A stretch of 29,859 nucleotides of DNA from a virus (IMGVR_UViG_3300010883_000277:1-29859), one strand, 5' to 3'. Shown: positions 1-8,520, counted from the stretch's first letter. The notes: a model not told the origin generated them from the sequence alone. Made by a program: numbers and translations.

Positions 1-513
1 AACGTAAGTATAATTGTAAGAATACTCAACAGGAGAAAAATATCGATGCATATAATTGCACCAAGGGATAGAAATCCTCTTTCTCGTTAAGAGTCGGGGA
101 TTTACGCATGCATCAGAAATTACTGCATTTGGCCAGCGGCACTCTTCTTCGGCGGTCATTTTGAGATCACCATCATGAATAATAATTGGAACACCGGCGG
201 CATGATAAAAATCTAAAACTTCACATTGTCTAGTATAATCTGACTCGCTTGAATTAACATCTGCATTTTTCCATGTTGGCCACCGCCACTCGCAATATAC
301 GATGTCGCCATCAGGAAACCCAACAGGACTATATTCCACACCGGGAAACTGTTCTTCATCTCTCATTTTTTGTAATTGAATTACGGTATGGTTTCTACTC
401 TGCAACTCTCGCACAAAATCAACTCGATTACCTCTCTCGCCGTCTGGTGTATTGACCATAGAATTTTTTTCTAAAGGCGTAATAAACCCCCAAAAACTAT
501 AAAGGACTCTCAT
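1..513 (-). CDS. Putative glycosyltransferase, N-terminal 171 residues (3' end outside window)
   Basis: An open frame runs from ATG at 513 to the window edge without a stop (171 codons, translated by hand), so the C-terminal part is missing. GGAGA lies 6 nt upstream of the ATG, inside the end of glf, and only one base separates the two genes, so they are almost certainly co-translated. The N-terminus (MRVLYSFWGF, then TPDGERGNRVDFVRELQSRN) has the pattern of a Rossmann-type first strand followed by a helix, as in GT-B glycosyltransferases. A later hydrophobic strand ending in HDGD (VPIIIHDGD) also fits such a fold. I see no diagnostic catalytic motif in the visible half. The glycosyltransferase call rests mainly on this fold impression and on the neighbouring UDP-galactopyranose mutase, which makes a sugar donor that needs a transferase. 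It could be an unrelated phage protein. Confidence 0.45.
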   Translation of the reverse strand, partial: MRVLYSFWGFITPLEKNSMVNTPDGERGNRVDFVRELQSRNHTVIQLQKMRDEEQFPGVEYSPVGFPDGDIVYCEWRWPTWKNADVNSSESDYTRQCEVLDFYHAAGVPIIIHDGDLKMTAEEECRWPNAVISDACVNPRLLTRKRISIPWCNYMHRYFSPVEYSYNYTYV

Positions 514-514
514 A

Positions 515-1624
515 CTATTCTCCAATCTTCGCTAATTCTTTTTTTGCCTTTTGTAAGGCTGAGCCGACCACTTGGTGCATATCGTAGTACCGATATTCAG
601 CCAGCCGTCCTCCAAATATTATATTACTATTTCTTGCAAGAACAGAGTATTTCCTAAAAATGTCGCTATTCTTTTTATCGTTAACAGGATAATAGGGTAC
701 CTTACTAGGTGTCCAGTCTTGCGGGTACTCTTTTGTCACTACGGTCTTCTTAAGATTAGCTGCATCTTGCGGTTGAAAATGCTTGTGTTCTACTATCCTA
801 GTATAGGGTACTTCATAATCGGTATAATTAACCACCGCGTTTCCCTGAAAGTCGCCATCATGAACTTCGTGCTCAAAACGAAGAGATCTATATTCCAAAT
901 AGCCGTATTCATAATTAAAAAATTCATCTATCTTACCAGTAAAGACGACGCTATTAGCCATACTGTCCCAACTTCCCACGTCTTCTAAATAATCGACCCC
1001 TAGACGGATATCAGCTCCTTTAAGCATATTTTTAACCATCTCTGTATAGCCGTCCTTTGGAATCCCTTGATATTTATCAAAGAAGTAGTTTTCCTCAAAT
1101 ATTAAGCGAATTGGTAGGCGTTTAATAATAGAAGCCGGTAATTCGCTGGGGTGGCGCTTCCATTGTTTCATTGTGTACCCCTTAATAAAGATCTCGTATA
1201 CTTCTCGACCAACTTGCGATAAGATCCATTCTTCTAAATTTTGAGGATCTTCACATGGTATGCGCACCTCTTGTAGCTTCGCTTCGGCTTCGGCGGGTGT
1301 TGTTACACCCCAGAGCTGGTGTAAAGTCATTAGATTAATAGGGAACGAATATATGTTTCCACGAAAATTAACTTTTGGCTTATTGATATATTGGTTAAAT
1401 TCTGTAAATCTATTTACAAACTCCCAGATTTTTTCATCATTTGTATGAAAAATATGAGGACCGTAAACGTGAACATCAACACCCTCTCTCTTTTCAGAGT
1501 AACAATTTCCACCAATGTGTTCTCGTTTATCTAAAACGAGAACAGATTTACCAGCGTCTAGCATTTCCCTTGTGAAAGTTGCACCAAACATGCCCGCGCC
1601 AACAACTAAATAATCATACTTCAT
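515..1624 (-). CDS. glf: UDP-galactopyranose mutase
   Basis: This flavoenzyme interconverts UDP-galactopyranose and UDP-galactofuranose, the donor for galactofuranosyl transfer. The 369 aa length is typical. The N-terminal FAD-binding glycine motif is VVGAGMFG (residues 7-14), followed by the GGNCYS segment near residue 38 and the family signature YGPHIFHT. The C-terminal signature IFGGRLAEYRYYDM, which carries a conserved flavin and substrate-site Arg, is also present, so the enzyme looks intact. Its ATG overlaps the TGA of the upstream thymidylate-synthase-like gene (ATGA), with AGGAGAG upstream, and it ends one base before the putative glycosyltransferase. The three genes therefore form one translationally coupled unit. 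In bacteria this enzyme serves surface glycans. Its position in a phage nucleotide cassette raises the possibility that the sugar goes onto DNA, but tail or lipopolysaccharide modification cannot be excluded. Confidence 0.93.
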   Translation of the reverse strand: MKYDYLVVGAGMFGATFTREMLDAGKSVLVLDKREHIGGNCYSEKREGVDVHVYGPHIFHTNDEKIWEFVNRFTEFNQYINKPKVNFRGNIYSFPINLMTLHQLWGVTTPAEAEAKLQEVRIPCEDPQNLEEWILSQVGREVYEIFIKGYTMKQWKRHPSELPASIIKRLPIRLIFEENYFFDKYQGIPKDGYTEMVKNMLKGADIRLGVDYLEDVGSWDSMANSVVFTGKIDEFFNYEYGYLEYRSLRFEHEVHDGDFQGNAVVNYTDYEVPYTRIVEHKHFQPQDAANLKKTVVTKEYPQDWTPSKVPYYPVNDKKNSDIFRKYSVLARNSNIIFGGRLAEYRYYDMHQVVGSALQKAKKELAKIGE

Positions 1625-2646
1625 CTTCTATTTTCTCTCCTTAAATCGAAGCTATATCCAGAATAATCAAAATCTATTATTTTAAAAATCGACTTATCCC
1701 ATCCTATTTTTTTAAGTCTATGACATGCCAAGAGCCCAGCAATGTCTGTCCAGACATTTCTATCAGTTGTATTATAAAAACCCGCTATTACATCGGTTAT
1801 TACAGCATGTGTCTTTGCACTTCTTAGATCTTTCTCAAAAAATGATAATCTTTCCAACCACTTGTCTTTTTCGCCATTTAAAAAGTCATGATTTTGAAAT
1901 CTAGGCATGCTCCCAGACTTATTAGCAGCCGTTAAAGATTTTTCTGTATTCTCGTCTGCTAAGATTGATCTCACCATCGGAAAATGTCTCTCATAAATGT
2001 GCAAAGAATTGCTTAGATGAGTATAAGAGCCTACATCAACCCCCAACTCTAGAGCCAGCATTTCTTGAAAGAAAGTGAATGCAGGGATGTCATAAGCAAT
2101 ACCGAAAATAAGATCAGAGCTTCTCATATTGACAATCATGTGTAGAAGATTATTTCTAATAAAAAATTGCAATGCTAGAGTGCAGGGCACGTCCAACTTA
2201 GCATCAACGCCGTCATCTGGCGTTCTCAAGTGTATTACAGCACGTCTAGAATCCGGATCATTCTTCAACTCATTTTTTACAAACTCCCATTGGTTTAAGC
2301 GACCATTTGCGATAATGTCGTTTTTTTGAAAAATCCTTGCGCCATAGGCGGAGTTAGCAGTTTCTCCATCATCACTAATATTTTTCCAAAACTTAGAATA
2401 GTTTGATATCCACTTTGTCGAATTATTTCCAGAAACGTACCATAGCATCTCAGCGGCAAAATACATCGGGCTAAATTTTCTGCCCTCTATAAATGGGTAT
2501 CTATTTCTAGGGTTGTTTATCCTAAATGAAACCCCCAACTTTTCTTTAATCCTTTGTCCTCTAGGAGAAGACTCATATTCATATTCATTATATACTTCTC
2601 TGACCAAAGAAAGATAACAGTCGGTAAAATTCTTAAATTCTCTCAT
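1621..2646 (-). CDS. Thymidylate-synthase-fold enzyme, probable dCMP hydroxymethylase
   Basis: The 341 aa protein belongs to the thymidylate synthase / pyrimidine hydroxymethylase family, which adds a one-carbon unit from methylene-tetrahydrofolate to C5 of a dNMP. Visible active-site residues are E66 (AAEMLWY), Y101 (SAYGAR), nucleophile C155 (DVPCT), R175 and D178 (NMRSSDL), H216 and Y218 (LHIYERH). The spacing matches E. coli ThyA exactly: C+20 = R, C+23 = D, C+61 = H, C+63 = Y. The residue matching ThyA Asn177, which reads the uracil ring, is Asp186 (AYDIPAF). T4 dCMP hydroxymethylase has the same Asn-to-Asp change, so dCMP is the more likely substrate. ThyA His147 is Thr156. The start ATG follows TATAATACACT, with only a weak AAGG at about 10 nt. 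A true thymidylate synthase remains possible. Confidence 0.85.
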   Translation of the reverse strand: MREFKNFTDCYLSLVREVYNEYEYESSPRGQRIKEKLGVSFRINNPRNRYPFIEGRKFSPMYFAAEMLWYVSGNNSTKWISNYSKFWKNISDDGETANSAYGARIFQKNDIIANGRLNQWEFVKNELKNDPDSRRAVIHLRTPDDGVDAKLDVPCTLALQFFIRNNLLHMIVNMRSSDLIFGIAYDIPAFTFFQEMLALELGVDVGSYTHLSNSLHIYERHFPMVRSILADENTEKSLTAANKSGSMPRFQNHDFLNGEKDKWLERLSFFEKDLRSAKTHAVITDVIAGFYNTTDRNVWTDIAGLLACHRLKKIGWDKSIFKIIDFDYSGYSFDLRRENRR

Positions 2647-2652
2647 AGTGTA

Positions 2653-5600
2653 TTATACCTTAAGCACCTTAATTTTTCTCATAGACGTTTGAAAACCATA
2701 GTCATTTTTATTCAACTCACCAACACAAAGACTATATTTCGGCATCTCTGTTTTGCCATCCCAACTCCAGCAGAATATCCTGAACTGCTGTCCTGAGGTG
2801 CCGGCCACGGTTAGTAACAGATATGGCTTATTATTCTTAGTCAGCTTTTCTTTTACATCCATTATTAAAAACCAATGTAAATCGATGTCGCTATATTCGT
2901 CGATAACGTTTATATTTTTATCGTCTAATCTTTGAATCACTTCTGGTGCAATTAAGGTTGATACGTCAAATGATCCTAGTTGTGCCACACTATTCTGTAC
3001 TTGTTCATGCCGTGACCACTCACCGATATTGTGCGTTTCAAGTAATAAGCGCTTGAAAGCGTCTCGACCTCGGTGAACATCTTTCTTCGTCCACTTTTTA
3101 ATTTCTGTGTTATTGTTAATCACGACTTCGTTCATCTGCTTATAGCTCTCAAAGACCGACTCATCACCTATAATATCCATTGATCCAAAAGCCTTAATTG
3201 CGATTAGGGCTTGTAAGGCTCTTTTATTAAACTTTGAGTGCCGCCACCTTCCGTCGTCACTCCACAATAACTCCTGAATATTTGAATAGGGTCGATTCTC
3301 CAAAATTTCCTTTATTGCAGCAGTACCGACACCCTTGCAGGAAAGAAATGATGGCATAAACTTTTTGCCATCCAATATAGTCCAAGATGTGTCGGCGTAA
3401 TTTATGTCAATGGGGACGATAGTGTAGCCTAGGGTTTTCACTTCAGAGAAAGCCTTTGACCTTTTTTTATCATTACCTGACATTGCCTCAAGATATGCGC
3501 AGAGCCACTCTTCCTCGAAATAAGTCAACAACCAAGCGCAGTAATACGAATCGATCGCATAACATACAGCATGAGACTTATTGAATCCATATCCTGCAAA
3601 GAATAGAATCTTTTCATACAGATCATCAGCTAGCTGAGCGTCAACACCGTTCTTTACAGAGCCGGCAACGAACTGCTCTTTGATCGCTCTAGCCTTAGCA
3701 AGTGACTCAGCTGCTTCGGAAGCTTTACGCTTCATAATACTACGTCTAACTGTATCTGTTTCTTCCTCAGGGAAGCCAGCAACCACAGAACATAGCTTCA
3801 TGATCTGCTCCTGAAATACAATCAAGCCATATGTTTCTTCTAAAACCTCTTTAATCAGCGGGTGGCCGTAGTCAATATCATCAGGATTATTCTTCGCATT
3901 GATATAGAGCTTATCAACCTTCGCAGTAAGTGGACCTGGTCGATAAATCGACGTTAGTGTTGCGATGTCAATGATACTCTTTGGCTTGGCTTTCTTAAAT
4001 AAGTTTTGTGCACCTCTACCAGCAAGCTGAAATATTCCAGCCCAGCGACCCTTAGCGTAAACATGTTCATACACATGCTGATCATCCATGTTAAGCACCT
4101 TTGGATCCATGTTATTATTGAACCAATCATAGACTTGCTCAAACGATGGATTCTCAATACCCTCTTTTCTTTGTAGGATTAACTCAATAGTACGCTGAAT
4201 TACTCTTAGTGTCTCCAAACCAAGGAGATCAAACTTAATCCACCCGAATGTCTCAAGATGCTTATAATTCATACCCTCTGCCCAAGGCGTTTGCAATTCG
4301 CCTCGAGCCTTGATCAGCGGCATTCTCTCTGCGATATTTTCAGCAACAATACAACCGCCCGCATGTCGGCCGAGAGCCTTATTCTGCTTAAACAGAACCT
4401 GGATTGGTGCTGCTACTTCTGGATGAGACTCGATAAATCCCCTAAACGTCTTTGAGTGTGCCATGGCATCCTCATATAGCAGTACGAACAAGTTCTTATC
4501 TGTCCCCTGCTTAAAGACGGCGCGCTTTACATCATCCTCAACAGGTGCTAATGCCTTATTCACTTCGGCATATGGAATACCGTAGAAGCGAGAAATATCT
4601 TTAACAAGTGATTTAAGCTTAAATGTATTGTAGTTAGAGATCGGAACGATATTCTCATCGCCCCATTTATCTTTCATCATATTAATGAGCATGTCTCGAT
4701 CACCTACGTCAGTGTCGATATCTGGTGCGCCTTCTCGAGACGGATTTAGAAAGCGACCAAACATAAGATCATACTCAAACGGATCAACGTCGGTAAGACG
4801 GAGGACATATGCAACGAGGCTACCGGCAGCCGAACCTCGGCCTGGACCAACAAGCATGGCTTGTTTGGCAATTTTAATGATCGCTTCCATTGTCAGGAAG
4901 TATCTAGAGAAATTCTTATCCTTGATGATCTTTAACTCGTGCTTTATTCTTTCAACGTACTTCGGATCGCCGGCAAGACCACGATAGACTAGTCCCTTCT
5001 TGCACGCTTCAAGTAGAGCCTTGTCATCTGTCATTCCTTCAGGAACAACATACGAAGGTAGCTTCATTGTACGGTCAGGAACAATTGCAGAAATCTTTTC
5101 ATGGACAATCTGATGAGGTAACTCTATAGCTGCCTTTACAACCTCATCATTATAGAATGACATGTCCTTAGTGGTCTCAAGATACGTATCCCAAAGTTGG
5201 TGAGCGTTCTTTGGATATAACTCACACTTAAGGTCTTCCCTTGATTGTGGTAACTTAGAGGGATCAAATTCTTTATAATTCAACCAACCTAACTTCTTGT
5301 ATAGCTCACGCTCACGCCAGTGTTCTGGACGAGCATAATGTGAATCAGTAGTTACAACTAGCTTGTCATTTAGGCCGCTACTCTTTGCAAACTCAATAAT
5401 TGCACGGTTCACAAGATGCTGAGCGGGTAACTTGTTGAATTGTATCTCTAGATGTACATCGTCGATTCCAACAGCATCTACAAGGCCCTGATATGCATTA
5501 CCAACTCCAGTCATAACCTTGGATCGAAATGAATCATCATCCATTAAGTTGTGCTTTAATTCATCGAATTCTACCTGTTGAGCGTGCTTAAATACCTCGT

Positions 5601-6255
5601 ACGCGATGGGACCGCCGATACAAGCTGTTGATACCATCAGGTGACCGCCTTCAGCGGCTTCCCTTAGCATCTTATAGTCAATACGAGGAAAGCGATAGAA
5701 GCCCTCTCTATAGCCTCTGCTAACGAGATGGAATAGTCTTTGAAGACCTATAGACGTCTTTGGGAGGACAACTAAATGGTGCCGGCGCTTGATTGGATCA
5801 TAAAACTTTCCAGACTTAGTCTCTTCCTCGTTCTCCACAGTGAGTCCGACTTCGGATTTTCCGATATCTACAATTTCATCATCACCATCTACAACAGCTG
5901 TTAGGGGGGTTGCGATTGCTTCGCGCTGAGCGCGAAGGATTCTGAGAGATTCTTTATCACCCTTTTTTGCTGCTTGCCTGATTTCCATATCAAGCTTCCA
6001 AGCCTCAAGATCAGGGTGGACGTACATCTCACAGCCTGGAACGAACTTAAACAATCCGCCGCGCTTTTGAATCTTTTCAGCATGTAGAAATGCATGACCA
6101 AATGAGTTCATATGGCCGTGGTTTGTAAGGCACCAGCCATCCATACCGTTTTCAATAACATAATCGATATGCTCTTGAGGATACCCAAGACCATCGAAAG
6201 TACTGAACCCATCGTGTGCATGTAAAGAAATAAACTTACTTGGGGGCTTGATCAT
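2653..6255 (-). CDS. dnaE: DNA polymerase III alpha subunit (family C replicative polymerase)
   Basis: This 1200 aa protein is a full-length family C polymerase (E. coli DnaE is 1160 aa). The N-terminal PHP domain keeps all nine metal ligands expected of an active PHP: H12, H14, D21, H46, E76, H160, C212, D304 and H306. The palm has GPGRGSAAGS (470-479) and catalytic D512 and D514 in APDIDTDVGD, with the third Asp, D676, in WIKFDLLGLETL. LGRHAGG (629-634), the fingers segment GIFQLAGRG, VFQEQIMKL and YGFNKSHAVCYA are all present, and an OB-like region precedes the C-terminus. The start has AGGGA 7 nt upstream. The 83-base gap before it contains a TATAAT at 6305-6310 without a convincing -35 element. 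Phages more often use family A or B polymerases, so this is probably the main replicase and is accompanied here by a small family A polymerase. Confidence 0.96.
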   Translation of the reverse strand: MIKPPSKFISLHAHDGFSTFDGLGYPQEHIDYVIENGMDGWCLTNHGHMNSFGHAFLHAEKIQKRGGLFKFVPGCEMYVHPDLEAWKLDMEIRQAAKKGDKESLRILRAQREAIATPLTAVVDGDDEIVDIGKSEVGLTVENEEETKSGKFYDPIKRRHHLVVLPKTSIGLQRLFHLVSRGYREGFYRFPRIDYKMLREAAEGGHLMVSTACIGGPIAYEVFKHAQQVEFDELKHNLMDDDSFRSKVMTGVGNAYQGLVDAVGIDDVHLEIQFNKLPAQHLVNRAIIEFAKSSGLNDKLVVTTDSHYARPEHWRERELYKKLGWLNYKEFDPSKLPQSREDLKCELYPKNAHQLWDTYLETTKDMSFYNDEVVKAAIELPHQIVHEKISAIVPDRTMKLPSYVVPEGMTDDKALLEACKKGLVYRGLAGDPKYVERIKHELKIIKDKNFSRYFLTMEAIIKIAKQAMLVGPGRGSAAGSLVAYVLRLTDVDPFEYDLMFGRFLNPSREGAPDIDTDVGDRDMLINMMKDKWGDENIVPISNYNTFKLKSLVKDISRFYGIPYAEVNKALAPVEDDVKRAVFKQGTDKNLFVLLYEDAMAHSKTFRGFIESHPEVAAPIQVLFKQNKALGRHAGGCIVAENIAERMPLIKARGELQTPWAEGMNYKHLETFGWIKFDLLGLETLRVIQRTIELILQRKEGIENPSFEQVYDWFNNNMDPKVLNMDDQHVYEHVYAKGRWAGIFQLAGRGAQNLFKKAKPKSIIDIATLTSIYRPGPLTAKVDKLYINAKNNPDDIDYGHPLIKEVLEETYGLIVFQEQIMKLCSVVAGFPEEETDTVRRSIMKRKASEAAESLAKARAIKEQFVAGSVKNGVDAQLADDLYEKILFFAGYGFNKSHAVCYAIDSYYCAWLLTYFEEEWLCAYLEAMSGNDKKRSKAFSEVKTLGYTIVPIDINYADTSWTILDGKKFMPSFLSCKGVGTAAIKEILENRPYSNIQELLWSDDGRWRHSKFNKRALQALIAIKAFGSMDIIGDESVFESYKQMNEVVINNNTEIKKWTKKDVHRGRDAFKRLLLETHNIGEWSRHEQVQNSVAQLGSFDVSTLIAPEVIQRLDDKNINVIDEYSDIDLHWFLIMDVKEKLTKNNKPYLLLTVAGTSGQQFRIFCWSWDGKTEMPKYSLCVGELNKNDYGFQTSMRKIKVLKV

Positions 6256-6338: not shown

Positions 6339-6713
6339 TTAGGATTTAATTTCAGACAACCTGTCTACTATTATTTTGTGTTTTCTATTATAGGCAGCAA
6401 AAAATTCAGCAGTATCGACACCAGTCATTATTAATATCGCTAAAAAATAATTAAAAGCGTCAATCATTTCTTCAAGATATTCTTCTCGATTGAACCCACC
6501 CTTCGCAGCTCTATGATCTTTCCAGTTTTTAAGATGTAGTAGCGCTTCAAAGAGCTCTTCCACACTTCGGAATGTTATTTCCCTTAAAACCTTTTGAGAA
6601 TTTTTGTTTTGTAAATCTACTGGCCAGGATGGATAAGCTCCTTCGACCTTTTCGGAAATTAGTCTCATAAAAGATTCTCGTAAATTGAATATATCTTCTA
6701 ATCTGTCTTTCAT
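6339..6713 (-). CDS. MazG/dUTPase-like all-alpha nucleotide pyrophosphatase
   Basis: The 124 aa protein looks like an all-alpha NTP pyrophosphatase (MazG / dimeric dUTPase / dCTPase superfamily), which hydrolyses a dNTP to the dNMP and pyrophosphate. The metal-binding pattern is two acidic clusters on paired helices: E52, E53 and E56 (SVEELFEAL), then E82 and D85 (LEEMIDAFNYFL). A later basic segment, YNRKHKIIVDR, resembles the conserved substrate end of the family. The substrate cannot be read from sequence. dUTP or dCTP would fit a phage that feeds dUMP or dCMP to the thymidylate-synthase-fold enzyme downstream, as the T4 dCTPase does. AGGAG precedes the ATG, but start codon and site lie in a perfect hairpin listed separately. 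Confidence 0.7.
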   Translation of the reverse strand: MKDRLEDIFNLRESFMRLISEKVEGAYPSWPVDLQNKNSQKVLREITFRSVEELFEALLHLKNWKDHRAAKGGFNREEYLEEMIDAFNYFLAILIMTGVDTAEFFAAYNRKHKIIVDRLSEIKS

Positions 6714-7713: not shown

Positions 7714-8520
7714 TTATCCTTGAATTTCTGGTACCCAATGTGTTGTTCGGCCATCTGGTGTTTTTTCCTTTATAACAGAATTACCGTCTGGATCTTTTTT
7801 TTGATTATAAACTAAAAAACGAGAATTGTAACTTCCAATTTCTCCGTAAAAGTCCTTATAAGAATTTATAGTTGCGCCACCCGTCAGAAAGGATTCTCTC
7901 ATGACAGACTTTATGGACTTATTAAGCATTTTTAAGTTCGAATCAGATAAATCCTCCACTTTTTTAAAAGGACTAATTCTAGCCAGATAAAGAGACTCAG
8001 CTTTAATATAGTTTCCAATCCCGGCGACTACCGATTGATCTAACAAGACCTTTGTGATATTAACATCATTTTTTTTTCTTAATGAAGATAAGAAAACCTC
8101 ATTGCTTATATCTTCCGCCAACATGTCTGGGCCGAAGGAGGCTAGCTTCATAGCTAATTGCTTTGGATTTGTCACAAATCTCATCGTTCCAAAATTCCTC
8201 ATATCATTAAAATAAGCCACTTTACCACTAGAGAACTTTAATAAAATGCGCGCATGATTAGAAGGTTCGTTTTGCCAAGCGCCTGTCATACCCAAGGTTG
8301 ACCATAGACTGCTCTTATTTTGGAAAATAATATAGATAAATTTGCCATGAACGCCGGCGCCTTGTATTTTTAGAGGCAGCTTTTCCTGGAAAGACAATAG
8401 CCCGGATAACTCTTTTTTCAAATATCTTCCAGATAATATCTCTACTTTTTCTAGCGAGTCGCCACCGATATGATCACCTAAAAAAAGCGCATATTTTCTA
8501 CACTCTGGTCCTTCAGGCAT
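7714..8520 (-). CDS. Fpg/Nei-family DNA glycosylase without zinc finger
   Basis: The 268 aa protein is a formamidopyrimidine/endonuclease VIII-type base-excision glycosylase with AP-lyase activity. It has the catalytic N-terminus MPEGPE (Pro2 nucleophile after Met removal, Glu3), the conserved beta-strand Lys60 (GVHGKF) and the helix-two-turn-helix segment around DQSVVAGIGNYIKAESLY. The C-terminal DNA-binding hairpin is present (DGRTTHWVPEIQ, with the conserved Arg), but the four cysteines of the usual zinc finger are all absent, so it is a zincless-finger type as in NEIL1 or plant Fpg. The start has AGGAG with 7 nt spacing. Oxidised-base repair is the expected role; whether it acts on modified phage or host bases cannot be told. 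Confidence 0.92.
   Translation of the reverse strand: MPEGPECRKYALFLGDHIGGDSLEKVEILSGRYLKKELSGLLSFQEKLPLKIQGAGVHGKFIYIIFQNKSSLWSTLGMTGAWQNEPSNHARILLKFSSGKVAYFNDMRNFGTMRFVTNPKQLAMKLASFGPDMLAEDISNEVFLSSLRKKNDVNITKVLLDQSVVAGIGNYIKAESLYLARISPFKKVEDLSDSNLKMLNKSIKSVMRESFLTGGATINSYKDFYGEIGSYNSRFLVYNQKKDPDGNSVIKEKTPDGRTTHWVPEIQG

Follow-up and report, generated by a model that had tools for sequence, protein, structure and literature searches.

To our knowledge, only a handful of sugars occur on phage DNA, chiefly glucose and arabinose. In phage T4, the glucosylation of DNA is post-replicative. In the Enterococcus phages VPE25 and VFW, cytosines are modified and bisulfite-resistant, consistent with glycosylation, and the DNA is resistant to MspI and cut by PvuRts1I; based on a galactofuranosyltransferase-like gene, the authors suggested the presence of galactofuranose (Galf) on this DNA (PMC4999554). 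A point of reference for the enzymes with a thymidylate synthase (TS) fold is MilA, the CMP 5-hydroxymethylase of mildiomycin synthesis, whose structure relates Lys133 and Ala176 to the preference for CMP, Arg and Ser to that for dCMP, and Asp186 to the selection of cytosine (PMC5175136). In the open-access literature searched, Galf and hydroxymethylcytosine (hmC) appear together in one paper, and no paper joins a UDP-galactopyranose mutase (UGM) with hmC; subscription papers were mostly outside the scope of the search, and novelty is unproven. A first-pass annotation of the locus described here had proposed galactofuranosylated hmC as a base modification not known to be described. This holds within the literature searched, except that Galf on DNA as such had been speculated upon for VPE25 and VFW (PMC4999554).

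Gene content and layout of the locus

The window, i.e. the whole stretch of viral DNA that was analysed, comprises 29,859 bp and is the entire IMG/VR record, so that the truncation of the glycosyltransferase (GT) gene at its start is due to the contig end. Three co-directional genes at 1-2646 on the (-) strand are read directly after a DnaE gene:

1-513, (-) strand (start codon ATG at 513, cut by the contig end at 1): predicted GT-B glycosyltransferase, N-terminal 171 of ~347 residues, assigned through complete relatives
515-1624, (-) strand: UDP-galactopyranose mutase (UGM/Glf), assigned by TIGR00031, PF03275 and PDB 1i8t
1621-2646, (-) strand: TS-fold pyrimidine hydroxymethylase, predicted dCMP hydroxymethylase, assigned by PF00303, with MilA as best PDB match and residues as in T4 gp42
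2653-6255, (-) strand: DnaE-type DNA polymerase III alpha (phrog_405, E=6e-223; TIGR00594 over cut-off)
6339-6713, (-) strand: MazG-like nucleotide pyrophosphohydrolase, candidate dCTPase with inferred role (phrog_12184, 8e-12; phrog_173, 6e-9; PF01503, 6e-4, slightly under cut-off)

The ORF coordinates confirm the gene junctions claimed by the first-pass annotation: the TS-fold and UGM ORFs share an ATGA overlap (1621-1624) and a single base (514) lies between the UGM and GT ORFs. Six bases separate the end of DnaE from the TS-fold gene. Order and strand of TS, UGM and GT are identical in all clade-1 relatives of the window (about a dozen distinct sequences), and thus the arrangement is not due to chance. 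The DnaE gene stays adjacent to the cassette in relatives. Upstream of the cassette, at a distance of a few genes, lies a homologue of the formamidopyrimidine-DNA glycosylase Fpg (7714-8520), which is kept in several relatives.

Longer virus contigs reveal what the window cuts off. In relatives, the GT gene is followed by genes for a P-loop kinase and a GalE-like SDR 4-epimerase, often also for a thymidine kinase, a cupin, a DHH protein and a dCMP deaminase. The search for a dNMP kinase that had been recommended for the rest of the genome was therefore answered in relatives only: the kinase-like gene lies outside the window, encodes 172-187 amino acids of the P-loop, phage thymidylate-kinase type (phrog_761, 3e-7), its substrate is not established, and a use of hm-dCMP is inferred. 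Judged by sequence, these downstream genes provide a candidate hm-dCMP kinase and a candidate source of UDP-galactose. Within this gene run, PF02777 marks a superoxide-dismutase-like gene, accompanied by a cupin resembling cysteine dioxygenase (L006:14694-15383 and relatives).

The mutase and the identity of the sugar

The second gene encodes a full UDP-galactopyranose mutase as had been claimed, scoring above the curated equivalog cut-off (TIGR00031, 381 bits vs 304; PF03275, E=1.5e-76). Its best PDB match is the E. coli UGM 1i8t (E=1e-131), aligned over the full length. In the UGM of C. jejuni (4mo2) the position of His59 is occupied by an Arg that goes with the use of UDP-GalNAc. The window UGM shares His59 with the E. 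coli type, and UDP-galactose is therefore the likelier substrate by sequence; the conversion to UDP-Galf is inferred. Clade-1 UGMs form one supported group in the UGM tree, which is a quick tree only and in which the branches of L168 and L193 are very long. The nearest UGM relatives (L023:582-11188, L119) belong to phage sugar islands that also encode UDP-sugar dehydrogenase and SDR enzymes; the L023 island also has GDP-mannose-dehydratase-like, carbamoyltransferase-like, radical-SAM-like and glycosyltransferase genes, as read from the sequence.

Galactofuranose is probably the attached sugar, a well-supported assignment that nevertheless remains an inference. The main alternative is a hypermodification cassette of the same kind with another sugar, either arabinofuranose, formed by the UGM from UDP-arabinopyranose, or galactopyranose or glucose, with the UGM serving something else. 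Bacterial UGMs are able to accept UDP-arabinose in vitro, and the epimerase of the relatives matches generic SDR 4-epimerases without pointing to a single substrate. Further support comes from clade 2 (L111-L114, L146-L148, L150, L152), in which an orthologous GT (42-62% identity), the kinase and the TS are located behind DnaE without a UGM in the operon, while the epimerase is present where the locus reaches far enough. One clade-2 record carries a UGM of 65% identity far off in a sugar island; in three other clade-2 records, which are fragments, no UGM was found. Hence, the GT does not depend on a UGM and the sugar is not necessarily the same: going by gene content, the scaffold of the GT may be used with different sugars, or phages may be able to do without the mutase. 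These sister phages lend themselves to a comparison on this question. Against another sugar in the window itself speaks the position of the UGM in clade 1, where it lies between TS and GT, overlapping the TS gene in the window and abutting it in the clade-1 loci. Moreover, GLF-family genes have joined the window's GT family in separate lineages, adjoining it at four separate places of the GT tree (clade 1, L158, L168, L193); the L158 branch is very long (5.0), so that its separate origin is unsure. Outside the family, a UGM stands in a row with TS and a T4 BGT homologue in Lactobacillus brevis phage ATCCB. The E. coli-type His59 additionally argues against UDP-GalNAc. We consider a different sugar possible but unlikely. 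The estimates given here and below for the alternatives are not mutually exclusive.

A further UGM-like match, at L172, was dropped as a flavin amine-oxidase-type protein without a PF03275 match. In a GT sub-clade consisting of L195, L196, L200, L208, L209 and L213, two different SDR epimerases and no UGM are found around GT and TS, which suggests yet another sugar.

The glycosyltransferase

The truncated GT of 171 amino acids has no family match in Pfam, PHROGs or NCBIfam, and its identity thus rests on complete relatives. These are 347-351 amino acids long and 94% and 80% identical over the window fragment; the 94%-identical ones, in L005 and at L006:8001-9041, have 347 amino acids. The Glyco_trans_1_2 domain (PF13524) was detected weakly, up to 5e-6, in 12 of 15 GT members. 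An AlphaFold2 model of a complete relative based on 33 aligned relatives reached a pLDDT of 90.5 and a pTM of 0.88, compared with a pLDDT of 57 for an earlier model from 15 close sequences only, before distant relatives were added. Compared with the PDB using Foldseek, the model matched GT-B enzymes throughout, and of its top 50 matches the T4 beta-glucosyltransferase BGT (1qkj, 0.66) and the T4 alpha-glucosyltransferase AGT (1y8z, 0.64) ranked first by TM-score, with many non-DNA GT-B enzymes scoring closely behind. Model and alignment satisfy the GT-B criteria of two Rossmann domains and a conserved Glu; this nucleotide-ribose-binding residue, E266, is invariant in the 33 sequences. Sequence similarity to T4 AGT or BGT was not detected by phmmer/hmmsearch in PDB searches, and hhalign against the BGT of Lactobacillus brevis phage ATCCB gave a probability of only 56%. 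The third gene product, previously annotated as a putative glycosyltransferase, thus models as a GT-B glycosyltransferase in its complete relatives, and the comparison with DNA glucosyltransferases and GT-B folds that had been recommended for the rest of the gene places the two T4 enzymes at the top by TM-score. Its activity and DNA as the acceptor are inferred.

Queried by tblastn with the window fragment, with a complete member and with a distant one, the isolate phages yielded no member of the family. Distant GT relatives (25-28% identity) occur in actinobacterial genomes (L120-L124: Sphaerimonospora, Planotetraspora, two Actinomadura, Nonomuraea), and a TS-family enzyme adjoins the GT relative in all five. 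In L122-L124 the TS is of the dCMP type and accompanied by an O-carbamoyltransferase and an epimerase, with kinase-like P-loop and methyltransferase genes shared too; in L120 and L121 it is of the CMP type. Whether these clusters serve DNA modification or nucleoside biosynthesis is undecided.

Since GT relatives sit with a CMP-type TS in L120 and L121, some family members may, on sequence grounds, act on free nucleotides. It is therefore conceivable that the GT of the window works on hm-dCMP or hm-dCTP as free mononucleotides, prior to their incorporation, and not on DNA. Apart from these nucleoside-biosynthesis-like bacterial clusters, the location of the kinase gene after the GT gene fits such a route. 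However, the closest folds by TM-score are those of DNA-acting enzymes and the T4 precedent is post-replicative, so that we regard glycosylation of the free nucleotide as distinctly improbable.

The predicted hydroxymethylase

The TS-fold protein matches PF00303 with E=1e-34. Its closest PDB sequence is MilA (3e-46), whereas T4 gp42 matches with 2e-15 only. At the active site the relation is different. The window enzyme is identical to T4 gp42 at 13 of 13 positions compared, and the residues in common include E66, R134, C155, S176, D178, D186, H216 and Y218. Among them are the catalytic Cys and Glu of the TS fold (C155, E66), the cytosine-selecting Asp at the Asn177 position (D186) and the deoxyribose-related Arg and Ser (R134, S176). 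MilA has Lys133 and Ala176 where the window enzyme has the dCMP-type Arg134 and Ser176. An identity as thymidylate synthase is ruled out by Asp186 and Thr156, and that of a MilA-like CMP hydroxymethylase by Arg134/Ser176. Thus, the hydroxymethylase-type Asp noted by the first-pass annotation corresponds to D186, and the protein resembles dCMP hydroxymethylases at every position tested.

A further possibility is that the TS-fold enzyme is an RB69-type 5-hydroxy-dCMP synthase, which would lead to a 5-O-glycosyl-cytosine lacking the methylene group. RB69 048c, which we take to be the enzyme making 5-hydroxy-dCMP (the gene assignment is our own), deviates from both T4 gp42 and the window enzyme by three differences among the compared positions, W87V, D178N and Y218F. 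The 5-hydroxy-dCMP synthases do belong to the same superfamily as the hydroxymethylases (PMC13390438), but W87, D178 and Y218 of the window enzyme disfavour an RB69-type hydroxylase, and we find this identity very improbable. In view of R134, S176 and D186, the identity with T4 gp42 at the positions compared and the differences from RB69 048c, 5-hydroxymethyl-dCMP is the best prediction for the product, with the enzyme activity being inferred.

Linkage of the glycosyltransferase family with TS genes

We sampled 72 distinct loci of the window's GT family with 8-10 kb on each side. A TS-family gene was located within 8 kb of the GT in 63 of them, and several of the GT loci without TS stop before the flank is complete. 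Other frequent neighbours are DnaE (58 of the 72 loci), the kinase (55), dCMP deaminase (49), MazG-like proteins (38) and the epimerase (32). In the control, viral UGM-centred loci without the window's GT family, TS was found in 0 of 64 distinct loci (Fisher p=3e-29). This value was not corrected for phylogeny; the loci are related and the figure is indicative only. All 65 TS proteins of the GT loci that are readable at the cytosine-specifying position have the Asp there, and 62 of the 65 have the full dCMP signature; the other three are of the CMP type, two of them actinobacterial. The company of Asp177 TS, PF01503 and dCMP deaminase was also found by MetaGPA, in an enrichment of DNA with modified cytosines (PMC8670742).

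Synthesis of a surface or virion glycan, in which UGM and GT would build a galactofuranose glycan with TS as a mere neighbour, had already been raised as a rival by the first-pass annotation and can draw on most viral UGMs of the sample lying away from TS and on the nearest UGM relatives lying in sugar islands (UDP-sugar dehydrogenase, GDP-mannose dehydratase, several GTs), but it is the weakest alternative and very improbable, because TS is present in none of the 64 such UGM loci vs 63 of 72 loci of the GT family, the operon has no flippase, polymerase or lipid-linked step, and the cassette neighbours are DNA polymerase, dNMP-kinase-like protein, thymidine kinase and dCMP deaminase.

Proposed pathway

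Taken together, the TS residues, the GT fold, the linkage and the parallel in phage ATCCB favour DNA hypermodification via hmC and a sugar over a surface glycan, and we are highly confident of this preference. For the full statement, that DNA of this phage contains hmC carrying galactofuranose put on by a GT-B enzyme, we estimate a probability of roughly 0.6. The original proposal of galactofuranose on hmC is therefore upheld as far as a hypermodification cassette is concerned, which is supported by enzyme families, specificity residues, fold and gene linkage as seen in sequences and models. The sugar stays an inference, as do the activities, DNA as the acceptor and a protective role, since no biochemistry is available.

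We propose that hmC would replace cytosine in the phage DNA. The MazG-like enzyme probably clears dCTP, and the downstream dNMP-kinase-like protein would phosphorylate hm-dCMP, leading to the incorporation of hmC by the phage polymerase. The downstream UDP-hexose 4-epimerase-like protein could supply UDP-galactopyranose, which the UGM would ring-contract to UDP-galactofuranose. The GT-B enzyme would then move galactofuranose onto the hydroxymethyl group of hmC in DNA, and the sugar might shield the genome from host nucleases.

Going one step further, we lean slightly towards regarding 5-(galactofuranosyl-oxymethyl)cytosine as a DNA base that exists but has not been described, and that phages assembled on several occasions when a UDP-sugar ring-contracting mutase was joined to a core of hydroxymethylase and DNA glycosyltransferase. 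The GT of this core would represent a large family of glycosyltransferases acting on nucleobases, as yet without a name, which is absent from the isolate phages searched and is also found in actinobacterial chromosomes, where its genes adjoin those of a hydroxymethylase of the dCMP type and of a carbamoyltransferase. If this is true, galactose in its furanose form would bring a novel chemistry to DNA bases, with every step of the pathway represented by a gene, and would give phages a new means of protection from restriction and CRISPR. A further outcome is the unnamed GT family itself, tied to cytosine hydroxymethylation in 63 of 72 loci, together with its linkage table.

Comparison with known systems

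RB69 and the arabinosylating Mosigviruses likewise encode sugar-nucleotide enzymes beside a TS-family enzyme and a thymidylate-kinase-like gene (PMC6024577, PMC13390438), but RB69 has isomerase and NTP-transferase genes, 5-hydroxy-dC and a TS active site unlike that of the window; a mutase is not mentioned in these two papers. VPE25 and VFW resemble the locus in having a TS with the Arg/Ser/Asp residues, a beta-GT and the galactofuranosyltransferase-like gene. Their GTs differ from that of the window, and a UGM is absent from the region inspected in VPE25.

The T4 system, with gp42, alpha- and beta-glucosyltransferase, gp56 and gp1, shares with the window the gene order (polymerase, 42 and b-gt in T4; DNA polymerase, hydroxymethylase and GT here), the active-site residues of the hydroxymethylase, a GT-B fold resembling that of BGT and AGT and, with roles that are inferred here, a MazG-like nucleotide pyrophosphatase gene nearby and a dNMP-kinase-like gene next to the cassette in relatives. 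In contrast to T4, the additional UGM and epimerase-like genes imply another sugar, no relation in sequence between the GT and those of T4 is detectable, and DnaE belongs to a different polymerase family.

In L. brevis phage ATCCB (MK504445 34336-37391; L002:6031-9086), a TS with the Arg/Ser/Asp residues, a DNA glycosyltransferase and a UGM are encoded in a row; the GT is genuinely homologous to T4 BGT (E=4e-43) and not a member of the window's GT family. The isolation paper mentions no modification, glucosyltransferase or mutase (PMC6563214). ATCCB is thus a cultivated phage that offers a test of the central claim. The locus described here follows the logic of T4, while its inferred sugar pathway and its GT family are new.
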